Source: a virus
Strand: one strand, 5' to 3'
Length of the DNA: 64,000 bases
IMG/VR virus record: IMGVR_UViG_3300048011_000525
Location: 51,583 to 115,582 of that record
Positions 61,431-61,502 of the stretch are shown here, piece by piece (the stretch's first letter is position 1; each line of letters begins with the position of its first letter). The translations under genes and the position numbers were made by a program. The notes beneath the pieces are model-generated. The model did not search any database. It saw only the letters and a list, made by a program, of their open reading frames with translations, and had not been told where the DNA came from.

Positions 61431-61502
61431 CTACTTGTTCATTACATACATTGTTACTTCGAATCCGAATCTCATCTCTGTTGCTGTTGGTTTTGTCCAC
61501 AT
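61431..61502 (-). CDS. pqqA: PqqA-like peptide, 23 aa (PQQ precursor homologue)
   Basis: The peptide begins [10 protein letters not shown] and continues [13 protein letters not shown]. Bacterial PqqA peptides such as that of Klebsiella have the same length of 23 residues, start MWxKP, and contain R-x-G-x-E-V-T-x-Y. Glu15 and Tyr19 are the residues that PqqE cross-links to make pyrroloquinoline quinone; both are at the same positions here. An AGGAG lies 8 nt before the ATG. It is the last gene before a terminator and downstream of a riboswitch-controlled peptide. No pqqB, C, D or E gene is in the window, so host enzymes would have to process it if PQQ is the product. Chance similarity is very unlikely given length, RBS and motif. 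Confidence 0.8.
   Translation of the reverse strand: [23 protein letters not shown]

Follow-up and report, generated by a model that had tools for sequence, protein, structure and literature searches.

In PQQ synthesis one PqqA peptide is consumed for each PQQ formed, while PqqB–E serve as reusable catalysts. Energy-supply auxiliary metabolic genes are known from phages, with psbA of cyanophages and pmoC of methanotroph phages as examples. PqqA has been defined as a peptide of 23–39 aa with an E-x-x-x-Y motif and is reported to be ~20-fold more abundant than PqqC or PqqE (PMC2294125); PqqE/PqqD join Glu15 to Tyr19 in known PqqA (reviewed in PMC8326336). The Methylophilales contain 3 to 12 pqqA copies and single copies of the other pqq genes (PMC4109929), and five pqqA copies are present in a Hyphomicrobium (PMC9851590). 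In coastal seas and lakes, the methanol-oxidising OM43 and LD28 bacteria form a link between primary production and the remineralisation of carbon (PMC9004378). One phage pqqA has been described together with methanol dehydrogenase (MDH), in the T4-like Lake Baikal phage VP_266, whose predicted host is a member of the Methylophilaceae (Coutinho 2020, PMC7678222). In addition, virus-encoded pqqA, pqqE and pqqD from reservoir sediments have been listed as phosphate-solubilising auxiliary genes (PMC13188868); the passages of that source on pqqA read it in terms of phosphate solubilisation and state no link to methylotroph phages.

The phage pqqA studied here resembles that of VP_266 in being a PqqA gene of a T4-like phage with a predicted Methylophilaceae host, and the purpose proposed for both is the same, to boost methanol oxidation. 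Like psbA and pmoC it is a phage copy of a host component that would sustain energy metabolism; unlike them it would supply a consumed substrate peptide for cofactor synthesis and not an enzyme or subunit. The presence of pqqA across methylophages, its occurrence as a solo precursor gene and the palindrome that it shares with host genes appear to be new, as we did not find them in the open-access literature.

The window, a stretch of 64,000 nucleotides, comes from a virus record of 115,582 bases (IMGVR_UViG_3300048011_000525). Translation of its minus strand from 61502 to 61431, a strand left unstated in the preliminary description, gives a PqqA-like ORF of 23 aa; the plus strand of the same positions encodes no PqqA peptide. 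The peptide scores 40.7 bits against the Pfam PqqA family PF08042 (cut-off 21.1, E=2.2e-10) and 39.3 bits against the NCBIfam equivalog TIGR02107 (cut-off 20, E=4.1e-10). These scores over the curated cut-offs confirm the preliminary description, which had recognised PqqA, and the features it had listed, namely the length, the MW-x-KP start, the R-x-G-x-E-V-T-x-Y core and Glu15/Tyr19, are all found in the minus-strand translation (MWTKP start; R11-x-G13-x-E15-V16-T17-x-Y19). With 23 aa, E15 and Y19, the peptide fits the published definition, and it matches Methylophilaceae PqqA (TIGR02107/PF08042) in length, sequence and both reacting residues. The 69-nt gene is preceded by a strong Shine-Dalgarno sequence (TTTTAGGAGTACACT-ATG; AGGAG at 61509–61513, minus strand) and followed by a predicted intrinsic terminator hairpin (61375–61352, minus strand), so that the ribosome-binding site and terminator proposed earlier could both be located. 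A Shine-Dalgarno-like motif lies within 20 nt of the start in 117 of 117 dereplicated viral pqqA genes. PHROGs holds no family for the window peptide, which fits the absence of pqqA from phage annotation. Judged by these sequence features, the window gene encodes an authentic PqqA.

The window pqqA sits between a 134-aa ORF and the gene for a gp23-like major head protein (61819–62997, minus strand; PHROG 138, E=1.3e-102), downstream of the latter. The closest named relatives of this capsid protein are those of the jumbo T4-related myophages Vibrio 2.275, Sinorhizobium Phosso, PA5oct and CBB (65–69% identity), so that the record is probably an incomplete genome of such a jumbo phage. Searches of the 115.6-kb record for radical-SAM proteins (PF04055) and PQQ_2 propellers (PQQ-dehydrogenase) gave no match, in keeping with the earlier statement that the window has no other PQQ gene. 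Directly upstream of the 134-aa ORF (60834–61238) is a freshwater-2 RNA (RF02980, 66.1 bits; 61236–61319, minus strand), and the same phage encodes a Nol-like carbamoyltransferase (18454–20274, minus strand; PHROG 1601, E=2.4e-167).

An intrinsic terminator of the capsid gene is predicted at 61771–61794 and divides that gene from the pqqA unit. Immediately after it lies ACTAAATA (61758–61765), a possible late promoter, and the presumed pqqA transcript would then be headed by a glutamine riboswitch aptamer (RF01739, 61706–61753; 50.4 bits, gathering cut-off 35). A 31-aa ORF (MTNYTLWCYKQLIKQHH..., 61587–61682), TCTAAATA (61556–61563, a possible late-promoter-like element), TTTAAATA (61546–61553, a possible T4-type late promoter element), pqqA and its terminator follow in that order. 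Every element from the capsid-gene terminator onward is on the minus strand. An alignment shows TTTAAATA to be conserved in the related contigs L053, L064 and L069 and partly in L127, and intergenic TAAATA motifs on the coding strand often precede structural genes. This conservation and placement, the latter as expected of T4-type late promoters, is suggestive of late promoters, although the 8-mer itself is not enriched window-wide (11 seen against 10.4 expected). Folding of the pqqA region revealed no RNA structure (z=+1.45). The riboswitch, which could couple expression of the 31-aa ORF and pqqA to nitrogen status, is also present in L053 together with the start region of the ORF. The ORF itself reads MTNYTLWCYKQLIKQHHIKKINDILLKRIYL, its N-terminal part is kept in L053 (TLWCY..LIKQH), and it has no match in NCBIfam.

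A tblastn search of 50,697 phage records with the window peptide matched 12 records. Nine are Methylophilales phages, namely Venkman, MEP301, P19250A, MEP401, MEP402 and four Melnitz records, and they comprise all the Methylophilales phage records that we found; they belong to several unrelated groups. The tenth match is a spring-water podovirus with a terminase closest to that of Venkman. Two matches labelled "Acinetobacter phage" were rejected as phage, as they are bacterial contigs with host pqqABCD. The common gammaproteobacterial form of PqqA, used as a query, returned the same records only. In the phage records pqqA is either unannotated or lies under a hypothetical ORF, which in Melnitz-1 was called on the opposite strand, and it goes unmentioned in the papers describing the phages Melnitz, MEP401/402 and Venkman.

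Pattern scans of IMG/VR located pqqA in at least 179 contigs, and nearly all of the frames are exactly 23 aa long. Their contexts are varied: the first 128 loci fall into 35 groups, each with three or more flanking genes in common, and among the proteins encoded next to viral pqqA are portal, terminase and capsid proteins and DNA polymerases of several kinds. The alphaproteobacterial-type pattern CxGMEVTxY occurs in seven viral contigs, of which 3–4 by inspection look like real PqqA and the rest like chance matches. A 101-kb pqqA-carrying viral contig (L127) also contains a permuted betaproteobacterial tmRNA (8647–9043, minus strand).

No PqqB–E was found near viral pqqA at any of the 179 collected loci, and PqqE scored above cut-off in none of the 47 longer pqqA-carrying viral records; these phages thus carry the PQQ precursor without its enzymes. 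VP_266, by comparison, is a single scaffold with MDH, and its pqqA was read, along with MDH and radical-SAM genes, as boosting a pathway. The pqqA gene described here, unlike that of VP_266, occurs in many lineages, mostly with the host palindrome, and 46 of the 47 longer records lack MDH. The one exception is a 72-kb record of L266, which encodes a PQQ-dependent dehydrogenase of the methanol/ethanol family (L358:1084–2958; TIGR03075, 607.9 bits against a cut-off of 480).

The viral pqqA copies are under purifying selection. On codons free of the constraint imposed by the search pattern, pN/pS was 0.30 in the first scan and 0.24 in the second; over all codons of the isolates and the window it was 0.18. 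Most of the diversity falls at third codon positions, and Phe14 was invariant in the first viral set although the first pattern did not force it. The preliminary description had staked its case on a search against PF08042, TIGR02107 and phage genomes and on the pattern of substitution: the family match proved significant, the frame recurs in many phages unrelated to one another, and the substitutions show a strong bias toward synonymous sites.

To place the peptide among bacterial sequences, we scanned GTDB species genomes with the pattern WTxPxxxEMR[FY]GFEVTMY, which gave at least 120 loci. Among the matches listed, the EMR[FY]GFEVTMY signature is found almost only in Methylophilales or in broader taxa containing them, with record titles naming Methylotenera, Methylophilus, Methylobacillus, Methylovorus, OM43, Methylopumilus or broader groups containing them. 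The window peptide is identical to none of the 24 host forms sampled and differs by one residue from the second of the two commonest host forms, a form that is also common in phages. From this PqqA signature, we infer that the window phage infects a Methylophilales methylotroph. Such hosts hold several pqqA copies: three each in OM43 LSUCC0665 and LSUCC0401, six in Methylophilus methylotrophus, seven in Methylobacillus flagellatus, 12 in Methylotenera mobilis 13 and two in Methylovorus sp. MM2. PqqE is encoded above cut-off in all six of these genomes, once in each except M. mobilis 13, which has two. The host pqqA copies are dispersed, and host and phage genes are alike in standing alone, away from pqqBCDE, and, for most phage copies, in having an upstream palindrome. 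They differ in that the phage gene lies in a phage genome, has the palindrome nearer to the start codon and, in the window, is preceded by phage-type leader elements.

Upstream of phage pqqA a TAATGATTTT element is over-represented. A position weight matrix (PWM) trained on 110 dereplicated host pqqA upstreams yielded a palindrome of the CTMATGAWWWTCATKAG type, which exceeds threshold in 104 of these host upstreams, with a median distance of 131 nt to the start codon. Applied unchanged to the phages, the host-trained PWM exceeds the 99% shuffle threshold (7.38) in 87 of 122 dereplicated phage pqqA upstreams (71%), at a median of 98 nt, compared with 11 of 821 upstreams of other ORFs (1.3%) and 11 of 1034 random segments from the same viral loci. 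At the 99.9% threshold (11.78), 54 phage pqqA upstreams remain, with one random segment and none of the 821 control upstreams. In six host genomes the palindrome, allowing at most one mismatch, occurs at few places each. Fourteen of the 21 listed sites, including every perfect match, adjoin a pqqA copy or the pqqBCDE operon, and some lie directly before pqqB without pqqA. Since the host sites mostly adjoin pqqA or pqqBCDE, we infer that the palindrome is a PQQ-regulon operator; no described element like it was found in the open-access literature. In most of the phages, transcription of pqqA is probably under the host PQQ regulator.

The window palindrome is degenerate (TTAATGATTTTACGGAT vs CTMATGAWWWTCATKAG; 61574–61590, minus strand). 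The match starts 92 nt upstream of the ATG, its left half is intact and its right half weak, and its score of 11.3 bits lies over the 99% and under the 99.9% threshold. Among seven loci from isolates, the podovirus and the window, those of Melnitz, Venkman, the spring podovirus, MEP301, P19250A and the window exceed the 99% threshold and that of MEP402 does not. The weak window palindrome and the lack of one in MEP402 indicate that operator control would not be universal among pqqA phages.

Taken as a whole, the best explanation, to which we assign a probability of about 0.8, is that Methylophilales phages make an authentic PqqA that resupplies the consumed precursor of host PQQ synthesis, usually under control of the host PQQ regulon. 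If phage takeover lowers host expression, the precursor would be exhausted first. Because PqqA is consumed and the enzymes are reused, the precursor would be the only component needing replacement once host expression is cut. The phage would add one further copy to the dispersed, multi-copy pqqA of its host; PqqD/PqqE of the host would join Glu15 to Tyr19 in the peptide made by the phage, and its PqqB/C/F(G) would complete PQQ. A single 23-codon gene could in this way keep the PQQ-dependent methanol dehydrogenase (XoxF/MxaF) supplied and provide energy to phage replication. In most phages, pqqA retains what looks like the host control sequence and would sustain PQQ synthesis and methanol oxidation; in the presumed jumbo phage of the window, pqqA has upstream of it a degenerate palindrome, TAAATA elements of the T4-late type and the glutamine-riboswitch leader. 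Precursor resupply explains the carriage of pqqA alone, the retention of the reacting residues and the persistence of the operator. It would be of use only given available apo-dehydrogenase or a loss of PQQ. In Acetobacter, PQQ rose by only 29% when pqqAB was overexpressed, compared with eightfold for pqqABCDE (PMC7936290), and precursor alone may therefore be limiting only weakly.

The window pqqA lies among phage genes, downstream of the major head protein gene, and with its Methylophilales signature is homologous to a host metabolic gene, as looked for in an auxiliary metabolic gene. On balance we favour the view, held with less assurance than precursor resupply as a whole, that several unrelated lineages of methylotroph phages took up, from a cofactor pathway based on a ribosomal peptide, only the gene for the consumable substrate, together with the host PQQ-regulon operator. 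The phage gene would then be switched by the host's regulator of cofactor demand, making it an auxiliary metabolic gene that encodes a substrate, not an enzyme, and belongs to a regulon of the host.

The preliminary description had offered three mechanisms, of which precursor feeding is favoured by our analysis and diversion of the host machinery is weakened. Diversion would mean that the phage peptide occupies PqqD/PqqE as a decoy, so that host PQQ falls and the host is slowed or radical-SAM chemistry is redirected, and carriage of the precursor alone, never of the enzymes, would suit it. The phage sequence is, however, nearly identical to the host substrate, and methanol dehydrogenase accompanies pqqA in one phage contig and in the Baikal phage (PMC7678222). 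Moreover, although a decoy need not keep both reacting residues, two targeted IMG/VR pattern scans found no contig with Glu15 or Tyr19 substituted and the rest of the motif intact; these scans covered non-Glu at 15 via first base A, C or T and non-Tyr at 19 via first base A, C or G, hence every replacement of Glu15 other than D, A, G and V and, at 19, every codon that does not begin with T. We regard a decoy as improbable.

It is also very unlikely that host enzymes process the peptide to a product with another role, such as a signal, superinfection exclusion or a cross-linked peptide that is not PQQ. Phage copies do vary more at positions 6–8 and 20–23 than in the core, as this would allow, but the same positions vary in hosts, the full PqqA core is retained, and the regulatory palindrome is common to phage pqqA and host PQQ genes. 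Another proposal makes operator and pqqA a small mobile cassette copied from hosts, a passenger of little effect on the phage, and finds some agreement in the small size, the host-like operator and the varied insertion sites. The retention of the gene in all nine Methylophilales phage records, across several unrelated groups, the purifying selection and an operator that was kept while its flanks diverged make such a passenger a very slim prospect. A chance ORF resembling PqqA, conceivable for a frame of only 23 codons, is already refuted by E=2e-10 in two curated libraries and by conservation across many unrelated phages, and its probability is negligible.

With precursor resupply as the preferred reading, a 23-codon gene missed in the annotation of methylophage isolates appears to be their common metabolic hallmark. 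Its status as a marker of Methylophilales phages, the multi-copy host pqqA and the palindrome shared with hosts had not been known to the preliminary description. The gene offers a short sequence tag for spotting methylotroph viruses in metagenomes, and the shared palindrome is a testable entry to the PQQ regulator of Methylophilales. A rule is suggested by which the part of a pathway worth carrying for a virus is whichever part gets consumed. Venkman and Melnitz, isolates that grow on the cultured OM43 host H5P1, allow these proposals to be tested now.

The scans also revealed a second viral PqqA lineage, with the pattern [EQ]K[IL]RLGFEVTMYFK, in ~42 contigs (L315–L354, L010, L016, L019 and L022), some of 217–340 kb. 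Its members score above the TIGR02107 cut-off and lie just behind phage genes, with no pqqB–E nearby and without the Methylophilales palindrome. The host of this lineage is perhaps another methylotroph. In one of its contigs (L345:5788–7860, plus strand), a protein with CHASE2 and adenylate/guanylate cyclase domains is encoded next to pqqA.
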